This document shows positions 7,483 to 18,000 of a DNA stretch of 64,000 bases, one piece after another. The stretch's first letter is position 1. Each line of letters starts with the position of its first letter. The notes beneath the pieces were generated by a model. The model was given only the letters and a program-made list of their open reading frames with translations, was not told the DNA's origin and made no database searches. The position numbers and the translations under genes are program-made. The DNA lies in contig JAGUYG010000051.1 of assembly GCA_020061465.1 (NCBI GenBank), positions 1-64,000 of the forward strand, read 5' to 3'. This DNA is from Ignavibacteriales bacterium. GTDB taxonomy: Bacteria > Bacteroidota > Ignavibacteria > Ignavibacteriales > Ignavibacteriaceae.

Positions 7483-8184
7483 ATGCTTGAAATAAAAAAC
7501 TTAAATACAGGATATGATAAGAAGCAGGTTTTATTCGATGCTTCTATTAATGTAAAGCGTGGAGAGATAGTTTCGGTTATTGGTCCAAACGGCTCGGGAA
7601 AATCTACTTTGTTGAAAGCAGTATGCGGGTTGATTCCAATTTGGTCGGGTGAAATGCTGCTGAATGGAAAGAAGCTGAATGGAAATGAACCGCCTGATAA
7701 TCTAAAGCTTGGAATGAGCTTTTGTCCGCAGGGTAACCGCGTATTTGATGAATTATCGGTGAAAGAAAACCTTGATGTCGGCGGATATATATTGAATAAA
7801 GCAAAACTATCGTTAAGAATTAATGAAGTACTTGAAATATTTCCAATGCTTAAAGAAAGATTAAATCAGGAAGCCGGCTCATTAAGCGGAGGTGAACAGC
7901 AGATGCTTGCAGTTGCAAGAGCATTAATTCCTGAGCCGGAAATATTACTTCTTGATGAGCCGTCATTAGGTTTGGCTCCTTATCTTGTTAAAGAATTATT
8001 TGATAAGCTTGTTGAGCTTAATAAACAATTAGGGATTACAATTCTTATAGTCGAGCAGAAAGTAAATGATGTATTGGAAATATCAAATCGTACTTATGGA
8101 TTGAAGCTTGGTAGAATAGCTTACGAAGGAACATCGGAAGATTTGATAAATAATAAAAAAATTTTAAAGGAGTTATTTTTGTAA
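7483..8184 (+). CDS. livF: Branched-chain amino-acid ABC transporter ATP-binding protein LivF
   Basis: The 233-residue ABC ATPase has Walker A GPNGSGKS at 34-41, LSGGEQQML signature, Walker B ILLLDEPSLGLAP and H-loop LIVEQKV. Length is typical for LivF. It is the last gene of the interrupted liv operon. With livH, livM and livG intact, the membrane and ATPase parts of the transporter could still be assembled if another binding protein is supplied in trans. Confidence 0.92.
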   Translation: MLEIKNLNTGYDKKQVLFDASINVKRGEIVSVIGPNGSGKSTLLKAVCGLIPIWSGEMLLNGKKLNGNEPPDNLKLGMSFCPQGNRVFDELSVKENLDVGGYILNKAKLSLRINEVLEIFPMLKERLNQEAGSLSGGEQQMLAVARALIPEPEILLLDEPSLGLAPYLVKELFDKLVELNKQLGITILIVEQKVNDVLEISNRTYGLKLGRIAYEGTSEDLINNKKILKELFL

Positions 8185-8732
8185 TGAGTCTGCTAATAAA
8201 GGCTAACTAAAAATATTTGTCCTAAGGACTCATTTGAGAAATTTTAGTTATAGTTCTCAATTTATAGACGGGGCTATCTGAAGAATCCCTTTAGGAAAGC
8301 CGTTTCGATTGGTTATTCTATTACCGTTCACTTTAGTGAACGGATTAAACGAGTAAGAAATCAATGGCTTTAGCCACATTAAGAATGGAAATTGATAGAT
8401 AAAATATAAGTGAGATAATTTCTTAATTCGGCGTTTTAAAGATTCTAAAATTAGATTGTATTATTTATCCACGAGCCTTTTTACAGAAACAACCGTGCAG
8501 GTTCCTTTAGATATTTAATTATGTATTATGGTTTATTATATATAATTCATTTTCAATGGAGCTTAATTTTTCTTCTATAAATTTAATCTGTCGGGAAATT
8601 AATCATATATTTTACTTCTACTCGACTTACAATACCGAACTTAATTCCTTCCTCGATTCCGGAATTAATTTATAATCAATCCCTAATTTCTTATTGAAAT
8701 CCATAACCTATTCAGCTAAATTTCAGTCGTGT
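8185..8732. other. Gene-free spacer between livF and dapF
   Basis: No coding frame is supported. The spacer holds a dispersed repeat copy (8213-8266), a perfect 9-bp hairpin CCGTTCACT/AGTGAACGG (8324-8343) without a T-run, and an 8-bp inverted repeat TTAATTCC/GGAATTAA near 8641-8668. It looks like decayed or repeat-derived sequence. Confidence 0.5.
8213..8266 (+). repeat. Dispersed non-coding repeat, copy 1
   Basis: The sequence ATATTTGTCC..GGACTCATTTGAGAAATTTT followed by TTCTCAATTTAT occurs here and again at about 15006-15058. Both copies lie outside genes. The shared block is about 50 bases with small differences. Confidence 0.55.
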
Positions 8733-9599
8733 ATGAAAAATCTTTCTTTTACTAAAATGAGCGGCGCCGGGAATGACTTTATTGTTATCGACAAAAATAA
8801 GTTTCCCGGATTTGCTGTGAATCCTTCTCTCATTCGTAAATTATGTGACAGACGTAACGGCATCGGTGCAGACGGCTTGATAACTATTGAAAAAAAACCT
8901 GAATTCGATTTCGAGATGGCTTATTACAATGCCGATGGTTCGACAGGCAGCCTTTGCGGCAACGGCGCAAGATGTGCTATTAAGTTTGCACTATTAAATG
9001 GATTAATAAACGGCTCGGTTACAGATTTTATTTGTGAGGGTGTTGAATATTCGGGCGCTGTGTTGAATGAAGATTTGATTCAATTTAATTTGAATAAACC
9101 TTCGAAAATAGATTTAAATGTTCTTATAAATGTTGATAACACAGAAATAAAATTGAGCAGCATAAATACCGGCTCGCCTCATGCGGTTATTTACATAAAT
9201 GACTTCAGTCAAATACCTGAAGAATCGGAAAAACTTTTAACTAAATTGAATACATTTCCAGTCGTTGAGCTTGGAAGAAAGATTAGGAATCACGAACATT
9301 TCGCTCCTGCCGGGACAAATGTAAATTTTTTGATGATACACAATAATCAAATATATATAAGAACATACGAGCGTGGAGTTGAAGACGAAACATTAGCATG
9401 CGGTACCGGCTCTGTTGCTGCTGCTGTTATTAGTAATCTTAAATTTGGTTTGCAGCCGCCAATAAAATTAATTTCAAAAAGCGGTGAAGAGTTGTCTGTT
9501 AACTTTAATTATAGGGATAGCGAATTCACTGATATATCACTTACAGGACCGGCAAAAATTATTTTTACCGGTGAAATTGATCTGGAAAAGTTTACTTAA
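8733..9599 (+). CDS. dapF: Diaminopimelate epimerase
   Basis: From the ATG at 8733 the protein has 288 residues and begins LSFTKMSGAGNDFIVID, the normal DapF N-terminus; a TTG further upstream (8694) adds an unlikely leader. Both catalytic cysteines of the epimerase are visible: Cys75 in GSLCGNGARC and Cys223 in LACGTGS. The enzyme converts LL- to meso-diaminopimelate for lysine and peptidoglycan. The ABM-like gene follows after 15 bases. Confidence 0.95.
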   Translation: MKNLSFTKMSGAGNDFIVIDKNKFPGFAVNPSLIRKLCDRRNGIGADGLITIEKKPEFDFEMAYYNADGSTGSLCGNGARCAIKFALLNGLINGSVTDFICEGVEYSGAVLNEDLIQFNLNKPSKIDLNVLINVDNTEIKLSSINTGSPHAVIYINDFSQIPEESEKLLTKLNTFPVVELGRKIRNHEHFAPAGTNVNFLMIHNNQIYIRTYERGVEDETLACGTGSVAAAVISNLKFGLQPPIKLISKSGEELSVNFNYRDSEFTDISLTGPAKIIFTGEIDLEKFT

Positions 9600-9614
9600 T
9601 TATTTGGAGAAAAA

Positions 9615-9929
9615 ATGGCAAGAGTTATCTTCTCAATACAGTATGAAATTAGTCCGCAAAGAAGAGATGAATACTTTAAAATCATTAAAGAATTAAAAAA
9701 TTTGATGACTACCGAAGGACTGGAAAGTTATTCCGTTTACGAAGTGAAGGGGAAACCGAATCATTTTGAAGAGATGTACACATTTAACTCGATGGAAGCA
9801 TACGAAGCTTTTGATGACGACCAGGATGAAAGAATAAACATACTTGTGAATAAGCTAAATGATTTAACGCTTAAAGAGTCGACAAAGTACAGTACTTTGA
9901 TAGAAGTTGATTCTTCTATATTGAAATAA
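9615..9929 (+). CDS. ABM-like dimeric alpha/beta-barrel protein, function unknown
   Basis: The 104-residue protein has alternating strands and helices (RVIFSIQYEISPQRRDEYF, then LESYSVYEVKGKPNHFEEMYTF, then MEAYEAFDDDQDE). This suits the ferredoxin-like fold of antibiotic-biosynthesis-monooxygenase/Dabb domains. No catalytic residue can be named. It has a GGAGAAAA site before the ATG and follows dapF closely, perhaps as one unit. Confidence 0.55.
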   Translation: MARVIFSIQYEISPQRRDEYFKIIKELKNLMTTEGLESYSVYEVKGKPNHFEEMYTFNSMEAYEAFDDDQDERINILVNKLNDLTLKESTKYSTLIEVDSSILK

Positions 9930-9997
9930 ACTTTCAATAAAAGGGTTCCTGCTTTAATGCGGAAATCTCTGCACCGTTTGTACATTGTATTTTACGC

Positions 9998-10351
9998 TTT
10001 GCCAAGCGGTCAGCTAAGATATCTATATTCACTTACTCTTCGATACCTATGCTTAAGGTTTCCGGTTCAGTTACCATTAATTATTTAACCGGCAGTTTTG
10101 TTTAAGGGGTCATCTACTCGGTACAGTTCAATACATATTTGCTTGACGATTTAGTTTATCTCAACGCCGGTTACAGGGAATCGGTTTACAAGTACGGATC
10201 GAGTAATCCGAAAAATCGTCAGCAAAACATTATAAGCGATATATCTTTCCTGATTTCAAAAAAAATCTTTCTTCAATTAAATTACGAATGAAATTTCGAG
10301 AGGAACATCACACTTTCCAGATTCATTTTAGGCATTACAACCCGGTTCTAA
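9998..10351 (+). pseudogene. Decayed outer-membrane beta-barrel gene (3' part)
   Basis: One reading frame gives barrel-like alternating sequence: AKISIFTYSSIPMLKVSG, VIYSVQFNTYLLDDLVYLNAGYR, then FERNITLSRFILGITTRF ending in Phe, as outer-membrane barrels do. It contains two in-frame stops (TAA after ...TGSFV and TGA after ...LNYE, the latter where Trp would suit). No start or signal peptide remains upstream. It is read as the 3' third of a lost outer-membrane protein gene; the exact family is not recognised. Confidence 0.5.
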
Positions 10352-10420
10352 GCAATTTTATTATATTTTCTTAGTAAAGATTTATATCTATCTTTCGCCT
10401 CAAAAATAAAATATATATCT

Positions 10421-11464
10421 ATGTTTGAGTACGTCGGGGCAATACACATGCATTCAATCTACTCCGATGGTTCAGGTACAGTCGAAGAGATTGTTAAGTT
10501 CGCACAGGAAATCGGATTGGATTTTATTATTCTAACCGACCACAACACGTTGAGAGCTTTATCCGAAGGTTACGAAGGCTGGCACGGCAGCACTATGCTT
10601 TTAGTGGGATGTGAAATTAACGACAGAAAAAATAAAAACCATTACCTGGCTTTTAACATCGATAAAACGTACTCAACACGTCTTTCCGCAAAAGAATATA
10701 TAAGAAGAATTAAGGAAGACGGCGGTATTGGCTTTCTTGCTCATCCTCATGAAAAAAGAACCCACATGAAGGAACATCCTCCATATCCCTGGACAGAGTG
10801 GGATACGAATGATTTTACGGGAATAGAAATATGGAATCACATGTCGGAGTGGATGGAAAATTTAACCGAGCAGAACAAGTATCAAGCTTTTCTTCATCCG
10901 TTGCGTACGATTGTCGCACCGCTGCCGGAGACCTTAAAAATTTGGGATGAACTCAATCTAAAAAGACGTATTACGGGTATAGGCGGTGTTGATGCACATG
11001 CCCATAAGCATAATCTGTTAGGCTTTTTTGAAGTAGAAGTTTTTCCTTATAAGGTCCTTTTTAAGTCAATCAAGACTCATATCTTATCCGAACAGGAAAT
11101 TAAAAAAAGAAAAACTTCATTAGATGCCTCAAAAGAAATTATCTATGGCTGCCTTGAAAGAGGTTCGTGTTTTATTGCAAATGACTATCACGGGGATTCC
11201 AGAGGATTTAGATTTTTCGCTAAAGCAAGAAATAAAATCTATCAAATGGGTGAAACAATAAAGCATACCGGTAAGGTAAATCTTAAAGTAATGCTGCCGT
11301 CGGTAAAAGGCGAAATCAAACTAATTCACAACGGAAAGCAGATTGACTCTGTTGACGCAAATTCAAGTGAATTTATCGTTAAGCAAAAAGGAGTTTACCG
11401 TATCGAAGTTTATTTAAATAAAAAGGCATGGATTTTTTCGAATCATATTAGGATAGGAGTGTAG
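10421..11464 (+). CDS. PHP-domain metal-dependent phosphoesterase-like protein
   Basis: The 347-residue protein starts with a PHP motif (HMHSIYSDG, His9/His11/Asp16), then ILTDHN (Asp40-His41), FLAHPHEKR near 108 and GGVDAHAH near 190. These are metal-binding motifs of the polymerase/histidinol-phosphatase fold. The last ~100 residues look like a beta-sandwich domain (GSCFIANDYHGDSRGFRFFA, KVMLPSVKGEIKLIHNG). Similar PHP/CehA-like proteins occur as stand-alone genes, and the substrate is unknown. There is no signal peptide. No neighbour suggests a pathway. Confidence 0.8.
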   Translation: MFEYVGAIHMHSIYSDGSGTVEEIVKFAQEIGLDFIILTDHNTLRALSEGYEGWHGSTMLLVGCEINDRKNKNHYLAFNIDKTYSTRLSAKEYIRRIKEDGGIGFLAHPHEKRTHMKEHPPYPWTEWDTNDFTGIEIWNHMSEWMENLTEQNKYQAFLHPLRTIVAPLPETLKIWDELNLKRRITGIGGVDAHAHKHNLLGFFEVEVFPYKVLFKSIKTHILSEQEIKKRKTSLDASKEIIYGCLERGSCFIANDYHGDSRGFRFFAKARNKIYQMGETIKHTGKVNLKVMLPSVKGEIKLIHNGKQIDSVDANSSEFIVKQKGVYRIEVYLNKKAWIFSNHIRIGV

Positions 11465-11585
11465 GTTTAATAATGTTTTGATAAATTTACATCAGTGGTT
11501 TACCGAATATTAACCGCTTTGAGTTTGAAACAGTATGGAAAATTTGTCATTATACATTATCCATTAATAATTATACATTAACCAC

Positions 11586-11697
11586 GCGCCCGTAGTTCAA
11601 TTTACCTGCCATAGGCAGGCGGATAGAACGTTGGATTCCGGTTCCAAAGGCTGAGGGTTCTGCTATAAGCATCCTTCGGAAAGTCCTTCCGGGCGCA
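11586..11697 (+). tRNA. tRNA-Arg (anticodon CCG) with extra sequence in D- and T-loops
   Basis: The acceptor arms GCGCCCG (11586-11592) and CGGGCGC (11690-11696) pair fully, with discriminator A at 11697. D-stem GTTC/GAAC, anticodon stem TTGGA/TCCAA with loop TTCCGGT (CCG at 11638-11640), and T-stem GAGGG/CCTTC are all present. Two extra pieces interrupt it: 18 bases (11603-11620), including the hairpin CCTGCC-AT-AGGCAGG, in the D-loop between AATT and GGATA, and about 20 bases in the T-loop after TTC. Without them a normal 74-base tRNA remains. No CCA is encoded. It may be a dead tRNA, or the inserts may be tolerated or processed. Confidence 0.75.
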
Positions 11698-12143
11698 CTA
11701 ATTTTTATTTAACTGCTAAGGAACTACACAACTAATTACAAGATTATAAGATTTTGCCAAAGGCTTTCCTTTGTCAAAATTATAAAATTACAAGATTTCG
11801 AGATTATAAGATTTCAAGATTCCATGATTGATTCGAAGGTATACCGTCGGGACGAGATTATTGATAGAATCAAATTCGTCTACGAATTCTTTCTGTAAGA
11901 GTCATGTAGTCGATTTCTATATCATTTGATTATAACGTATAATTATTTTACTGCTTAGCGCCAATCTTAAACGATAAAGGTTACTTTTAAGCACCATATT
12001 TTTTCTGTTGTTTGCCTCATAATCTTTCCAACTTTATGGAACATTACAGAATAATGTGCTAAATTTGACAGTAAATTATTGAACAAGGCTAACCTTTCTT
12101 TTAGCCGTTAAACAAATTTTTATTCACTTTAAGGAATTAATGG
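11698..12143. other. Gene-free AT-rich spacer with short direct repeats and a hairpin
   Basis: Units like CAAGATTATAAGATT recur several times between 11740 and 11825. A hairpin TTTTGCCAAAGG/CCTTTGTCAAAA (11752-11779, one mismatch, CTTT loop) lies among them. No coding frame is supported. The promoter of the downstream TPR gene should be here but no clear element was found. Confidence 0.5.
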
Positions 12144-12830
12144 ATGCTTACTAAAAAGAAAAAATTATCAAGAAAAGAGATTAAAGAAGACAAGCTCGTT
12201 TCCGCTTATTACAAAGCTTTCGGATTTTTTGAAGAGAACAAATCCCGAATTCTAATGTATGCTGGAGCTTTAGCGGTTGTTATTGCGGCGGTTTACTTCT
12301 ACTCCAATTATCAAGGCGAGAATAACGAGAGAGCAGGATACTTATTATCTAAAGTGATGCCGTTATACGATGCAGGCTCCTACCTTGAAGCAATCGAAGG
12401 CAGACCCCAGGAAAATATTGACGGATTAAAAAAGATCGTTGACGAATACGGCAGCACCGAAAACGGCGAGACAGCAAAAATTCTTTTAGCAAATTCTTAC
12501 AATATGTTAGGTAAATTTGATGAAGCTTTTAAATATTACAAAGATTTCGGCGGGAAGAATTATTTGTTGAAGGCTACTGCTCTTGCCGGACAGGCAGCTT
12601 ACTTTGAAATGAATAAAGATTATTCAAAAGCGGCAAGTCTTTACAAAAAGGCTGCATATATATCCGAGAATAATATGCTTAACGGAGAGTATTTATTAAA
12701 AGCCGGAATAAATTATATGAAAGCCGGTGACAAAGATGAAGCAAAAAACCTTTTTGAGGTGATAAAGAAAGACCACACTACTTCGATGGCATACAGAGAA
12801 GTGGAAAAGTATTTACAGCAAATTAACTAA
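12144..12830 (+). CDS. Membrane-anchored TPR protein
   Basis: The 228-residue protein has a basic N-terminus, one membrane helix at about residues 37-56 (MYAGALAVVIAAVYFY) and a C-terminal TPR-like domain (ILLANSYNMLGKFDEAFKYY, AAYFEMNKDYSKAASLYKKA, AGINYMKAGDKDEAKNLF). The layout resembles YfgM/tol-pal-associated helper proteins that expose TPRs to the periplasm, but no precise family is recognised. The next gene, a T9SS-secreted protein, begins 30 bases downstream, so the two may be co-transcribed. Confidence 0.75.
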   Translation: MLTKKKKLSRKEIKEDKLVSAYYKAFGFFEENKSRILMYAGALAVVIAAVYFYSNYQGENNERAGYLLSKVMPLYDAGSYLEAIEGRPQENIDGLKKIVDEYGSTENGETAKILLANSYNMLGKFDEAFKYYKDFGGKNYLLKATALAGQAAYFEMNKDYSKAASLYKKAAYISENNMLNGEYLLKAGINYMKAGDKDEAKNLFEVIKKDHTTSMAYREVEKYLQQIN

Positions 12831-12860
12831 AACTTATTTCATCAAATAATAGGAGGCATC

Positions 12861-14717
12861 ATGAGAAGAATATTACTTGCTTGTGCAGTTTTATTTGTCT
12901 GCACCGAAATCAGCTTTGCGCAACTTAGTAATGTTGCAAATTTTAACAGGTCGGATATAACTCCAGATCCAACCATGCCATATTACAAACCAGGCGCTGC
13001 AGGAAATATCGGAATCAGATCTGTATGGGTTACAAACGACCTTGACAATGACGGTAAACCGGAACTGATAGTTACGGACTATTCAAACAATGGTCGAGTC
13101 CATGTGTTAGAAGTTAATGGAGATGCCTTAGAAATCGTTTGGTCTTCTCCAATTATTACTACTCATTCTTCCGGGAGCGGTAGTACTCCAAGATGGGTAC
13201 GTTCGGGTGATTTAGACGGGGATGGTAAGGGTGAGATTATTTTCCCCGTCAGCCAGGGATCTTTAGATTACGAAATCCAAGTTTGGGAATGGGACGGAAT
13301 AAATGACGATAGTTACATACTTGCTACTGTTCTCGAGATGAATGCTTTTGCAGCTCAGGGAGTTGGTAATTTTAGAACAAATAGAGAAGTTGCAATGGTT
13401 TTTGATGTCGACGGAGATGGACTTGACGAATTCATAATGTCGAATAGAGACCATAGTGTGTATATACTCGGTATCTCCGGTGATGTGCCGGGATTTGGCG
13501 GCTGGCAGTTAGAGGGTGGTGACCCTGCAGAAGTGCCGGTAAACAGTAAAAGTTTTTCTACATCTCATTGGCACTCTATCCCTGCTGATATTAATGGCGA
13601 CGGCAATTTAGAAATTGTAAATCACATGTGGAATTTCTGGGGGTTCTGGAGTATAAAACCTACCGGACCTAATACTTACCAATATCCGGATACTAATCAA
13701 GCCAATCATTACGTTGAATTTTTACGCTCCCAAAGTGTTGATGGAGTTTCATATATGGGTATTCAGCGAGTTGATGTAGATGGAGATGGTAAAGATGAAA
13801 TTGCCGGAATAATTTACAGCGGAGTAAGTGACATAGAATATGCTTTAGCACTTGTAAGTATACCAAAGGATGCTGATCCGCTTTATTCTTGGGATCCATC
13901 AAATTATGTTATTCTAGCGGAAAAACAATGGGAATTGGCTGGTAAAACCGGCGGTTCATTTTGGGGTATTGGCGCTGCAGACTTAAATAATAACGGGCGT
14001 GAAGAAATCCTAATCGGCGGTTCAAACGATTATAATATCGTTGCTATCGAATATAATGGTTCAGGCGATATTCTAGATCCAGCTAATTATACTTCCGAAA
14101 TTATTTTTTCGAACGGACACTATAATAGATTTTCTTCTGTTGATATTATTGATTCAGCCGGAGTAATTGATACGGTAGCAGCAGCAGACAACGAAAGTCC
14201 GTTTATTTCAAAAATGTATGCAGGCAGCGATATAAATGGAAATAATAAACAAGAAGTAATTGTTACTTACCAGAGTGTTGTTGACTCGGTTAAGTATACA
14301 TACAAGAGGTGGGATGGTTCTGCATTCGTAACTGATTCGGTCGCAGTTAGATGGAATCCGGATCAAACTACCGTTTGGATGCTCGAATCACTTGTCACAG
14401 GTATTCGCACGGTTGAACTTCCAATTATTTCACCGGATGATTATAGGCTTGCTCAAAATTATCCTAATCCTTTTAATCCAACGACAAATATTCAATTTAC
14501 TTTACCTGTTGATAAGAAAATTTCACTGCATATTTACGATATGTTAGGCAACGAAATTAAAACCCTCATTAGCAATGAAGAGGTTGCAAGGGGAGTATAC
14601 GAAGTAACCTGGGACGGCACAAACAACAGCGGAAGTGCTGTTGCCAGCGGGCAGTACATCTATACTTTGAAGTACGGCAACTTCAGCAAGTCTATGAAAA
14701 TGACCCTGCTGAAATAA
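12861..14717 (+). CDS. Secreted FG-GAP/VCBS repeat protein with T9SS sorting domain
   Basis: The 618-residue protein has a signal peptide (about 1-20, ending SFAQ). It carries at least six FG-GAP/VCBS-like calcium motifs such as DLDNDGKPEL, DLDGDGKGEI, DVDGDGLDEF, DINGDGNLEI and DVDGDGKDEI, pointing to a beta-propeller. The last ~85 residues are a T9SS C-terminal sorting domain with NYPNPFNPTT and a final MKMTLLK. It should be exported by Sec, passed through the T9SS and anchored or released at the cell surface. The ligand is unknown. A clear terminator follows. Confidence 0.88.
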   Translation: MRRILLACAVLFVCTEISFAQLSNVANFNRSDITPDPTMPYYKPGAAGNIGIRSVWVTNDLDNDGKPELIVTDYSNNGRVHVLEVNGDALEIVWSSPIITTHSSGSGSTPRWVRSGDLDGDGKGEIIFPVSQGSLDYEIQVWEWDGINDDSYILATVLEMNAFAAQGVGNFRTNREVAMVFDVDGDGLDEFIMSNRDHSVYILGISGDVPGFGGWQLEGGDPAEVPVNSKSFSTSHWHSIPADINGDGNLEIVNHMWNFWGFWSIKPTGPNTYQYPDTNQANHYVEFLRSQSVDGVSYMGIQRVDVDGDGKDEIAGIIYSGVSDIEYALALVSIPKDADPLYSWDPSNYVILAEKQWELAGKTGGSFWGIGAADLNNNGREEILIGGSNDYNIVAIEYNGSGDILDPANYTSEIIFSNGHYNRFSSVDIIDSAGVIDTVAAADNESPFISKMYAGSDINGNNKQEVIVTYQSVVDSVKYTYKRWDGSAFVTDSVAVRWNPDQTTVWMLESLVTGIRTVELPIISPDDYRLAQNYPNPFNPTTNIQFTLPVDKKISLHIYDMLGNEIKTLISNEEVARGVYEVTWDGTNNSGSAVASGQYIYTLKYGNFSKSMKMTLLK

Positions 14718-14750
14718 TACCATAGATGAAATAATTAGCATAAATACAAA

Positions 14751-14778
14751 GCCGTGGATTTTTATTCACGGCTTTTTT
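14751..14778 (+). terminator. Rho-independent terminator after the FG-GAP protein
   Basis: GCCGTG and CACGGC form a 6-bp stem around an AT-rich loop (14751-14772), followed directly by a run of T. It lies 34 bases past the stop codon. Its stem is the same as in the terminator at 27479. Confidence 0.85.
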
Positions 14779-15005
14779 ATTGAGTCCTGGAAAAAGTTTG
14801 AGTAATTGAGTACACTCACGAGATAACAGTGATAACTAATAGATCTTCACAAAACTCAAGAAACAGGATAGAAATTCTGTAGGGAGGATTTGAAATAATC
14901 TTTGAAATCAAAGAAAGTCAAAATAAAATAATACGGCAATAAGATTCAGTTCGACGGGGTTTGTTAGAGTTACTAAGGTTCAGGTGAAAAAGATAAAATT
15001 CCAAC

Positions 15006-15058
15006 CAAAGATATTTGTCCGATGGACTCATTTGAGAAATTTTTTCTCAATTTATTTC
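15006..15058 (+). repeat. Dispersed non-coding repeat, copy 2
   Basis: The second copy of the ATATTTGTCC..GGACTCATTTGAGAAATTTT..CTCAATTTAT block seen at 8213. It lies just past the 3' end of the large helicase gene. The remaining spacer from 14779 to 15071 holds nothing else that can be supported. Confidence 0.55.
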
Positions 15059-15071
15059 CGTTCATAATTTA

Positions 15072-18000
15072 TTAGCGGATTAGCGGCTGCTCGTCATCAA
15101 ATAACTTTAACAGCGGCTTTTCACTCTCAATTGACAGCTGTTTTTTAGCGTCTCTCTGCTTCATAGCTCTTTTCACTAAATTTGTTTTACCCATTTGTTT
15201 ATATATCATTATTGCTCTATCAAATTCTTCCAGCTTCAGTAACGTATCGGCAATTTTTATATTGTTCTTACCGTGTTTCATATACATGTTAAGAGCTTCA
15301 GAATACTTCTGAATTTTAAAATAAATATCTCCTGCTTTTAGATAATTGCCCAATTCTATGCATAACGAAACTGCTTTAGTATATTCTTTTGCCTCAATAT
15401 ACAGGTTCACTGCTCTCTTAAAATCAGATTTAGATTCATAGAACTGTGCTAACCTTAAATAATTTCTGTTTTCTCTTAAAAATAGAAGTATGGTTTCATC
15501 CTCACAATTTTTGAAGAGATATTCATAAGCTTTCTCCTTTACGGAATCTTTTTCTGAACTTTCTGCTCGTAGAAAGAGAAGGAAATTGTTTTCATTCAGT
15601 TCAAGTTTATTAATCATCGATTGATAATTGTTCCAGGAAATAAAATGCAGTGCTATGGCAGAATTCTCATTTACCTCAGTAAACTTCTGTTTATTCTCCT
15701 TAAAGTAATCATATACAATCGAATAAGAACGACGATGTTCATAACTTGATTTGAGTTCAACCAAAGATTTAAAGTAATCATTATACTTTTTGCTATTTTC
15801 AAAATAATTTAGAGCATCAATTATAAATTTGCCTTTAATATCCATAAGTATTAATCGTTGAGCCCACATTGATATCTCCAAACAACGAAATTCTTCGTCT
15901 TCATTCTGTTTACCTGTATCAGCAAAATAAATACCCATTGCCTTAACTACGTTTGAATCATTGTAAAGCTCGAGACTACCAAAACTGCTTTTAAATTTCC
16001 AGAGAGGGGAATCAAATATTAGCTTTGCAAATATATCAGCCCTTGATTCCTCCAGACAAAAACTTGCTACAATTTCAAGTTGATCAAATAAGAAGCATGT
16101 ACCCCAGGATTTTAATGCGTCATCAATTTTATTTAATTTGTAATAGCATACTCCTGTGTTAATCATATCCATTATAATGTTACTGCATTGCAGCGCAAGA
16201 TCAAATTCATCTCTTGAGTAAAACTGCTGTCCGTAATTTCTTATTTCTTTTGATGTAAGATATTTAGATACAAATTCAGTCTTATAGTAATTATCATTTT
16301 TATCTTCCTCAGATTTAATATAGGAAATGAATGCTTTATGATAATCTCTTAGTTTCTCATAAGATTTACCGGCAGAAAATAAATTACCAGCCAGTTCAAA
16401 ATATTTAGCTGCCTCTTTGTAGTTACGATGCAAGAAGCTGCATTCCGCCGTTTTTTCGTTGTCTTCTATGGCAAGGTATCTTAGATATGCACCGAAATAT
16501 TTTTTGGATTTGTACAGATTTTCTGCCTGTTCTTTTATTTCCTCTTGAGAATAATTTTTCTTCAAAACTTTTAATACGGAGCTTGCGTCTTTTTTCTTTT
16601 CGTAAACCTTGATAAGCTCGGTAAAATTGTTAGTTCTGTTATAAAGCTGAATTAGTTTTTGCTCATACTTCACGGAAGCCTTTCTGCTTATTTTTTTCAA
16701 GCAGAAAATTGCCCTCTCGAAATCACCGGAATTCTCAAATATCAGTGCTGCTTTCTCAAATTGTTTAAGCTTCATATAAATAACAACAGCTTTTTCTGAT
16801 TTGCCTGCTGCTTCGTAATAGTAAGCAGCTTTCTCCTTATTCTTAAGCTTGCTTTCAAACACCTGAGCAGCGCTCTCGAAATTTTTGTCTTTAATAAAAT
16901 AATCTGCCGCTTTCTGATATTGTTTCTGCTCTAAATAAATTTGAGCAAGATCGGAAAACCTGCCTTCCTGCTCATAGACCTTTAAGGTCAAGTTATAAAT
17001 TTTTGATTTCTCATCCAGTTGATTCCACAACCTGAGAGCATCAGAAAAAGCGGATGACTTTTCATAATTGATCGCAGCTCGTTTAACATCTCCGTGTTTT
17101 TCAAAATATTTAGCAGCTTCAAGAAAGTTTTCGTGTTTTTCATTATAGAACGCGAGAACTTTTACAAGTTGTTCTTCCGCATTTGCATTTTTATAACATT
17201 CAATTGCAGCTTTGTAATATTCTCTTTCGAAAAAATAATCGCCCTGTTCAAGCCATTCTTCAGGAGTTGATATAACATTCCATATTTTATCAATATAATC
17301 GACATCATCCGATAGAAAAATCTTATCTGCCAAGTGCTGATTTTTCCAAATTACAGATGCCTGAGCACCATCATAAATTAAAAGATCTTTTTGTGCACGC
17401 GTAATTGCAACGTACAGCAAATTTATTTCGTGTTTGATTTTTGCTTGATGGTAGGAAATTTGCTCACTATTTAAAATATTTTTCCATAAGTCTTTTGAAA
17501 AATCATCGGCACAGAACTTCCACAAAAGCACAGTATCAAATTCCAATCCTTTTGCTTCGTAAATTGTAAAAATTAATTCTGTTTCAAGCAGCTTTTTAAG
17601 CTTTTTCTTTTCAGTTTCGGTTCTTACAAGAATAGTTTTTTTTGCGCCGGTTGTGGTAAGGCTTTCAATCATCTCCGGCTCTTTAATTCCGATAACAACC
17701 ATCGGGGGTCTGCTTTTAAATTTCCAGTCTTCATGCAACTGGTCGCTGCTTACACCCAGCAGTCTGGTTTTTATCTCGAGCAAAGAATTAGAAAGTTCAA
17801 CAATGCTGCCTGAACTCCTAAAATTAAGATTTAGAAAACGAACTTCAGGCACCTTTATATTTCTTGAATAAAAATGCTGTCTTAATTCCTCCCACCTAAA
17901 ACCGCTTGGATTTATAATTTGTTTTGTATCCCCGGTAAGAACCAGATCGAGCGGATTATTTACCAAATAAAAAAGTAGTTCATGCTGAATATCTGTTAAA

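Follow-up and report, generated by a model that had tools for sequence, protein, structure and literature searches.

Short palindromes of bacterial genomes are usually regarded as intergenic, and the Rickettsia palindromic elements, which lie inside genes, are longer and mainly known from protein genes. The tyrT repeats (rtT) of E. coli form a tandem series behind a tRNA, and every unit bears the 3' end of tRNA-Tyr. Other short bacterial palindromes, named REP, BIME or REPIN, are thought to be moved by the HuH transposase TnpA-REP (RAYT), as outlined in the consulted part of PMC8266576, and the tags of REP are given as GTAG/CGTC in the excerpt used of PMC3733652. From mitochondria, the consulted sections of PMC2800124 describe the double-hairpin elements (DHE) of Allomyces mtDNA and the hairpin elements of sponge mtDNA as short sequences of one or two hairpins, considered mobile, whose form is conserved more than their loops. 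Also, in cryptophyte mitochondrial genomes, tRNAs are found at the ends of A-T rich intergenic palindromes, with tandem repeats as well, according to the excerpt used of PMC5910586. We found no prior description of hairpin inserts in tRNA loops in the literature searched, subscription journals being mostly outside its coverage.

Here we describe palindromes that occupy fixed sites within the loops of tRNA copies in more than one genus, with compensatory changes. The window analysed is a stretch of 64,000 nucleotides from an Ignavibacteriales bacterium of the Ignavibacteriaceae (contig JAGUYG010000051.1), whose genome is called the source genome below. Positions 11586-11697 of the window are likely the lineage's ancestral tRNA-Arg(CCG), recently inactivated in place by two hairpin inserts of loop-specific families that are also found in dispensable tRNA copies.

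Structure of the interrupted tRNA-Arg(CCG) gene

The first-pass annotation had proposed a tRNA-Arg(CCG) with inserts in both the D-loop and the T-loop, and direct reading together with comparison to the intact tRNA-Arg(CCG) of the relative G016 bore this out. The features of the locus are the following.

10421..11464, plus strand: upstream synteny anchor, an ORF that we take to encode a PHP-like protein, a name given from the look of the sequence and not from a family search
11586..11697, plus strand: tRNA-Arg(CCG) locus whose D-loop and T-loop each carry a hairpin insert; orthologous, in place, to the relatives' intact tRNA
11586-11600: tRNA nucleotides 1-15, by direct reading
11601..11620, plus strand: D-loop insert, TTTA + CCTGCC-ATA-GGCAGG + C, which takes the place of tRNA nucleotides 16-17
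11621-11660: tRNA nucleotides 18-57 of the BLAST query (3' part of the D-arm, anticodon arm, 5' strand of the T-stem, TTC)
11631..11647, plus strand: anticodon arm TTGGA-TTCCGGT-TCCAA, anticodon CCG, unaltered
11661..11680, plus strand: T-loop double mini-hairpin TGCT-ATA-AGCA / TCC-TTC-GGA, between C56 and R57
11681-11697: remainder of the T-loop, T-stem and acceptor (17 nt)
12144..12830, plus strand: downstream synteny anchor, an ORF for a presumably TPR-like protein

The gene reads as 15 nt of tRNA, 20 nt of foreign sequence, 40 nt of tRNA, again 20 foreign nt and 17 nt of tRNA. BLAST aligned nucleotides 1-15, 18-57 and 61-75 with the G016 gene at 100% identity, that is 70 nt (15+40+15), the D-loop and the T-loop being the only places of difference. 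All four stems pair and the anticodon is CCG, while a 20-nt insert in each of the two loops leaves neither a normal 7-nt T-loop nor a short elbow-forming D-loop. The D-loop hairpin has its arms at 11605-11610 (CCTGCC) and 11614-11619 (GGCAGG), with ATA between them; an insert had been placed at 11603-11620, and its presence holds whereas its bounds do not, the non-homologous stretch being 11601-11620. Inserts of this size make a tRNA call unlikely, and ARAGORN gave none in the window, which indicates that relics of this kind can escape annotation tools. Rfam did not report a tRNA at the locus either, even at E <= 1 on the 501-base stretch 11400-11900, where neither a recognised splice-site intron nor a group I/II intron was found and no Rfam match reached E <= 1. 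A promoter/terminator scan gave no excess over shuffles, and strict 18-mer double hairpins numbered 0 across the window. Just downstream of the tRNA, at 11730-11830, we also noted A+T-rich direct repeats ACAAGATT(A)TAAGATT...

The source genome has another tRNA whose D-loop and T-loop both carry inserts, near C15:33112-33250 on the minus strand, with anticodon UCG and the T-loop insert TGCTAACAGCATCCTTCGGA. It adjoins a 3' fragment of tRNA-Arg(ACG) that has a normal T-loop, and the intact counterpart pair of these Arg relics lies at C15:49889-50078. This sister copy bears on whether the window gene might be a working tRNA, either with its inserts spliced out or with enlarged loops that are tolerated. 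The intact stems and the 70 unchanged nucleotides would fit such a tRNA. However, the acceptor stem of the C15 copy is broken and its fold does not surpass that of shuffled sequences (z -0.90), the inserts of different tRNAs show no constant splice-like boundary sequence beyond the loop, and an intact tRNA-Arg(CCG) stands elsewhere in the genome. Moreover, the predicted RNA fold of the window gene keeps the acceptor, D and anticodon stems, but the 5' strand of the T-stem pairs with the insert. We consider a working tRNA very unlikely; judged from the DNA, the window gene is probably no longer functional.

Synteny and the replacement tRNA-Arg(CCG)

A normal tRNA-Arg(CCG) was matched by the window DNA stretch in 16 of 40 relatives, and ARAGORN assigned all 16 to Arg(ccg). 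The PHP-like ORF lies beside the intact tRNA in 12 of these 16 loci and the TPR-like ORF in 16 of 16, counts affected by some loci ending early at contig ends or at the 1.5 kb flank. The intact orthologs used in this comparison come from other genera, and the window's own genus is represented by one genome.

The search for tRNAs in the source genome gave 47 matches, 45 of them above the cut-off. Among the fetched loci, ARAGORN recognised an intact tRNA-Arg(CCG) of another type, here called type B (L051, C47:21989-22061), and also the Arg tRNAs UCG, ACG, UCU and CCU. Type B has matches at E < 1e-18 in 11 of the 40 relatives, all Arg(ccg). By these criteria 16/40 relatives hold the window type (type A), 11/40 type B and 13/40 neither; the two types are mutually exclusive among the 40 relatives, and the source genome alone holds both. 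Its type A is present only as the disrupted window gene and a decayed Arg(UCG) relic. Over 76 nt, the type B genes of the source genome and of G038, which is from another family, do not differ, and the flanks are not shared; such identity without common flanks suggests that type B was acquired by transfer.

A second intact tRNA-Arg(CCG) had been named beforehand as the finding that would favour a pseudogene, and the C47 gene answers to it. The annotation had left the choice open between a pseudogene, a spliced tRNA and one working with enlarged loops: the first is favoured by L051, and the other two gained no support, the T-stem being predicted to fold with the insert. Because the relatives keep the intact gene in synteny, 70 nt are identical and a different intact tRNA-Arg(CCG) exists in the genome, the window gene is very probably a young, in-place pseudogene rather than a spliced or large-loop tRNA. 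The perfect stems and the 70-nt match to another genus count against a pseudogene, and continuing selection may also explain them; we read the perfect conservation outside the loops as a sign of its youth. Its loss would be tolerated if CGG can be read by the other tRNA-Arg(CCG) and also, through wobble, by tRNA-Arg(UCG). In this sense, the locus would be a natural record of tRNA gene loss and replacement, where one native tRNA is knocked out and covered by another.

Hairpin inserts and tRNA relics across the family

The T-loop inserts form a family of two adjacent mini-hairpins with stems of 3-4 bp and triloops, flanked by TTC and RA. They occur in copies of Arg, Val, Thr, Glu, Ser, Pro, Ala, Cys and Met tRNAs; in the source genome, they also follow tRNA-Pro(CGG), tRNA-Thr and a tRNA-Met. 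A first pattern search gave 15 places in 6 of 80 family genomes, and a scan of genome contigs returned 11 stretches, 10 from Ignavibacterium MAGs and one coding-looking match in a Nitrospinaceae MAG; matches of 3-bp patterns in other genera were taken as chance, those read looking coding. The first 3-bp patterns (8/391 genomes) had pointed to a narrow range of the source genome and the genus g20 Ignavibacterium only, and this was wrong because G001 carries a form with 4+4-bp stems, invisible to such patterns. Ignavibacterium has 3+3 stems, the source genome 4+3 or 4+4, and G001 4+4.

We compiled 44 rows of inserts, 33 of them distinct, and aligned the 28 distinct ones of 18 nt (alignment A1), keeping 5 of 20 or 22 nt out of the pair counts. 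Among these 28 Ignavibacterium inserts, GC outnumbers CG by 18 to 10 at pair 10-16, CG outnumbers GC by 22 to 6 at pair 19-25, and 96.4% of the cells of each mini-helix are paired. The covariation score of 0.41 was reached by none of 500 shuffles, a control that kinship among rows may inflate, and slid versions nonetheless all scored lower (0.06-0.23). A single long hairpin was rejected as a model, pair 10-25 failing in 24 of 28. The insert TCCRAAGGATGCTTYGCA is the reverse complement of TGCRAAGCATCCTTYGGA, which shows that the element exists in both orientations.

A sequence-blind structural scan (T-stem, TTC, two adjacent perfect hairpins with stems of 3-6 and loops of 3-5, RANT, T-stem partner) found 4 distinct places in 207 kb of loci of the source genome, the window gene included, 15 in 164 kb of G019 and 11 in 400 kb of G001, counts which are not densities, many loci having been fetched for holding such inserts. 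There were 0 in 400 kb of G007 and 0 in two sets of relatives' Arg loci; a mixed set gave 29, some of them repeating G019 and source-genome places. Sampling of G001 and G007 was mostly at even steps, with a single tRNA locus added for each. All matches have triloops, though loops up to 5 were permitted. The reversed sequence gave 1 match in 3.06 Mb, and the form of the T-loop insert is therefore not chance.

The pattern TSCRAAGSATSCTTYGSA with at most 1 mismatch has 92 sites in the source genome and 19 in G019, against 0 in the control. In G019, 16 of the 19 fall at known T-loop insert sites; in the source genome, none of the 16 sites that were read in context is in a tRNA. So the element is mainly T-loop-bound in Ignavibacterium and a dispersed palindrome in the source genome. 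The 92 dispersed sites hold palindromes like TCCGAAGGATCCTTTGGA (e.g. L269-L282), and at least one lies apparently inside a protein gene (L279). Of 7 Y1 transposase (RAYT-like) genes inspected in the source genome, 2 have several double-hairpin palindromes nearby, at L314 (C68) and L317 (C109). PF01797 genes are present in 9 of the 10 genomes searched, so that their presence does not discriminate between genomes. The tag tetranucleotide GTAG/CGTC beside the hairpin is absent at the T-loop inserts.

In the source genome, D-loop inserts are often a hairpin followed by TAAA (Gly twice, Thr, Met, Asp), and the window insert, TTTA followed by a hairpin, resembles them by form only, in inverse order. 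It has no close sequence relative in the source genome. The search for its palindrome elsewhere, proposed in the annotation, located 5 places of the general form, none of them recognised in another tRNA, because D-loop inserts share form and not sequence. With only 5 such places, a high-copy repeat was discarded. G019 reuses hairpins per loop, with TCCGTTAGCTAACGGA mostly in D-loops and TCCCGACAAGTCGGGA in anticodon arms. Among 45 distinct insert segments from tRNA relics of the source genome and G019, 32 are palindromic by the rule applied, where 6.3 would be expected from random pieces of the same loci, and 13 are not.

Partial copies flank intact tRNAs, 5' halves upstream and 3' halves downstream, and partial or full extra copies with hairpins in the same loops were found in the source genome and two other genera. 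A relic at most 1.5 kb from a distinct tRNA was counted in 12/44 cases in the source genome, 18/42 in G019, 2/8 in the G001 sample and 1/2 in the G007 sample, with the caution that a few of the shortest matches (e.g. Leu-UAA and Ser-UGA of the source genome) may be chance. The Arg(ACG) fragment and copies of Leu(CAA) have a normal T-loop, which counts against the reading preferred here. The source genome also shows, at L066 (C15:88200-89200), an intact tRNA-Leu(CAA) flanked by copies whose variable arm holds a 39-nt hairpin insert. In G019, many 5' halves of tRNA-Leu(CAA) precede the intact gene in a long tandem array (L158:832-1465), and every half contains CCTGTCTGCCGACAGGCAGG in its D-arm.

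The recurrence of hairpins at the same loop sites, in the source genome and in relatives' tRNA copies, agrees with the early remark that stem-sparing inserts are hard to attribute to random decay. The source genome is a 122-contig assembly, a point in favour of assembly error. Nevertheless, either that or ordinary random pseudogene decay is barely credible: the same insert forms occupy the same loop sites in the single-contig G019 and G001 and in separate MAGs, and the window gene has no point decay. An artefact of assembly was rejected on the strength of the inserts in single-contig genomes.

Tandem arrays follow the tRNAs Thr-TGT and Glu-TTC in G019, G081 and G001. In G001, tRNA-Thr is followed by 11 tandem units of ~112 bp (L337:2860-4173), each composed of the tRNA 3' part with a T-loop hairpin insert and a copy of a terminator-like hairpin, and 7 of the 11 pass the strict double-hairpin scan; the tRNA-Thr of G019 has a similar array of ~111-bp units. 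The double-hairpin T-arm might be a functional structure, for example a folded-strand recombination site like integron attC, with the units of 110-450 bp as cassettes. In agreement, structure is kept while sequence and stem length vary between genera, and arrays stand after the same tRNAs in these three genomes. On the other hand, most units contain just a terminator-like spacer and the window copy is a lone gene without units, and we regard this explanation as improbable.

Some of these loci contain genes with GIY-YIG domains (PF01541). In G019, 16 of 18 matches form 6 clusters, each starting ~60 nt or less from an intact tRNA, and the remaining 2 are part of long frames. In the same genome, tRNA-Leu(CAG) is followed by five 450-bp units in tandem that contain GIY-YIG genes, at 120014-122135 (L162 and following). 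Of the 7 matches in the source genome, 2 adjoin tRNAs (Asn C11, Pro C73), and no tRNA was recognised on reading the PF01541 stretch of C36. Relics beside GIY-YIG/tRNA loci carry hairpins. One could suppose that GIY-YIG elements with a restoring tRNA half invade tRNA genes, and that hairpins on the displaced halves, here on a whole tRNA, are selected and not just tolerated, as they would abolish a site for a nuclease or recombinase, or prevent recombination or mispairing between the relic and the real tRNA. The clusters beside intact tRNAs and the hairpins of the adjacent relics speak for such a protective edit. However, GIY-YIG genes are missing from many arrays (Thr, Glu, Val, Ala), none lies near the window gene in the ORF list for 8000-16000, and the intact tRNA, the expected target, still stands beside its relics; this account seems rather doubtful.

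Under the preferred reading, recent inactivation in place of a dispensable tRNA, the inserts would be DNA-level elements: short palindromes, mobile or spread by gene conversion, that insert into tRNA loops and survive only in tRNA copies which the cell can do without. Both the tandem relic arrays and the small GIY-YIG endonuclease genes may be part of the same process. Since similar hairpins are found in the same loops of many relatives' leftover tRNA copies, the data suggest that something targets tRNA genes in this bacterial family. As a tentative extension, Ignavibacteriaceae could possess a dedicated family-wide tRNA-gene system, in which small elements, some with GIY-YIG, duplicate tRNA halves in tandem beside intact tRNAs, and the extras then receive hairpins in their D-, anticodon- and T-loops through a DNA process that is structure-specific, the shape of two mini-hairpins with triloops being kept while the sequence drifts; the window gene would then be a whole native tRNA retired in this way and replaced by a foreign isoacceptor. 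Hairpin DNA, small GIY-YIG nucleases and tRNA genes, the last being frequent sites of integration, are here connected in a way that can be tested.

Comparison with described palindromic elements

The inserts share with the Rickettsia palindromic elements a position inside genes and differ in length and in the protein-gene setting. The rtT repeats are like the arrays described here in being tandem repeats downstream of a tRNA and containing its 3' end; to our knowledge they have no hairpins in the T-loop, a trait of the present arrays only. The association of tRNA, palindrome and tandem repeat is common to the cryptophyte mitochondrial genomes, where hairpins inside tRNA loops do not appear in the consulted part of PMC5910586. 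As in REP/BIME, the T-loop element resembles a mini-hairpin followed by its inverted copy and a double-hairpin palindrome has 92 dispersed sites in the source genome; unlike REP, the T-loop inserts lack the GTAG/CGTC tag and, in Ignavibacterium, the elements reside mainly in tRNA T-loops. The DHE and sponge elements are mitochondrial, and the consulted sections of PMC2800124 mention neither a concentration of them in tRNA loops nor a connection with tandem tRNA fragments; unlike DHE, the inserts reported here measure 18-22 nt with triloops. They are alike in their short make of one or two hairpins and in the conservation of form over loops. Furthermore, the T-loop inserts have, as DHE do, two adjacent hairpins with compensatory changes, and a double-hairpin palindrome of one form is dispersed over the source genome, with no site in the control and none in a tRNA among the 16 read.
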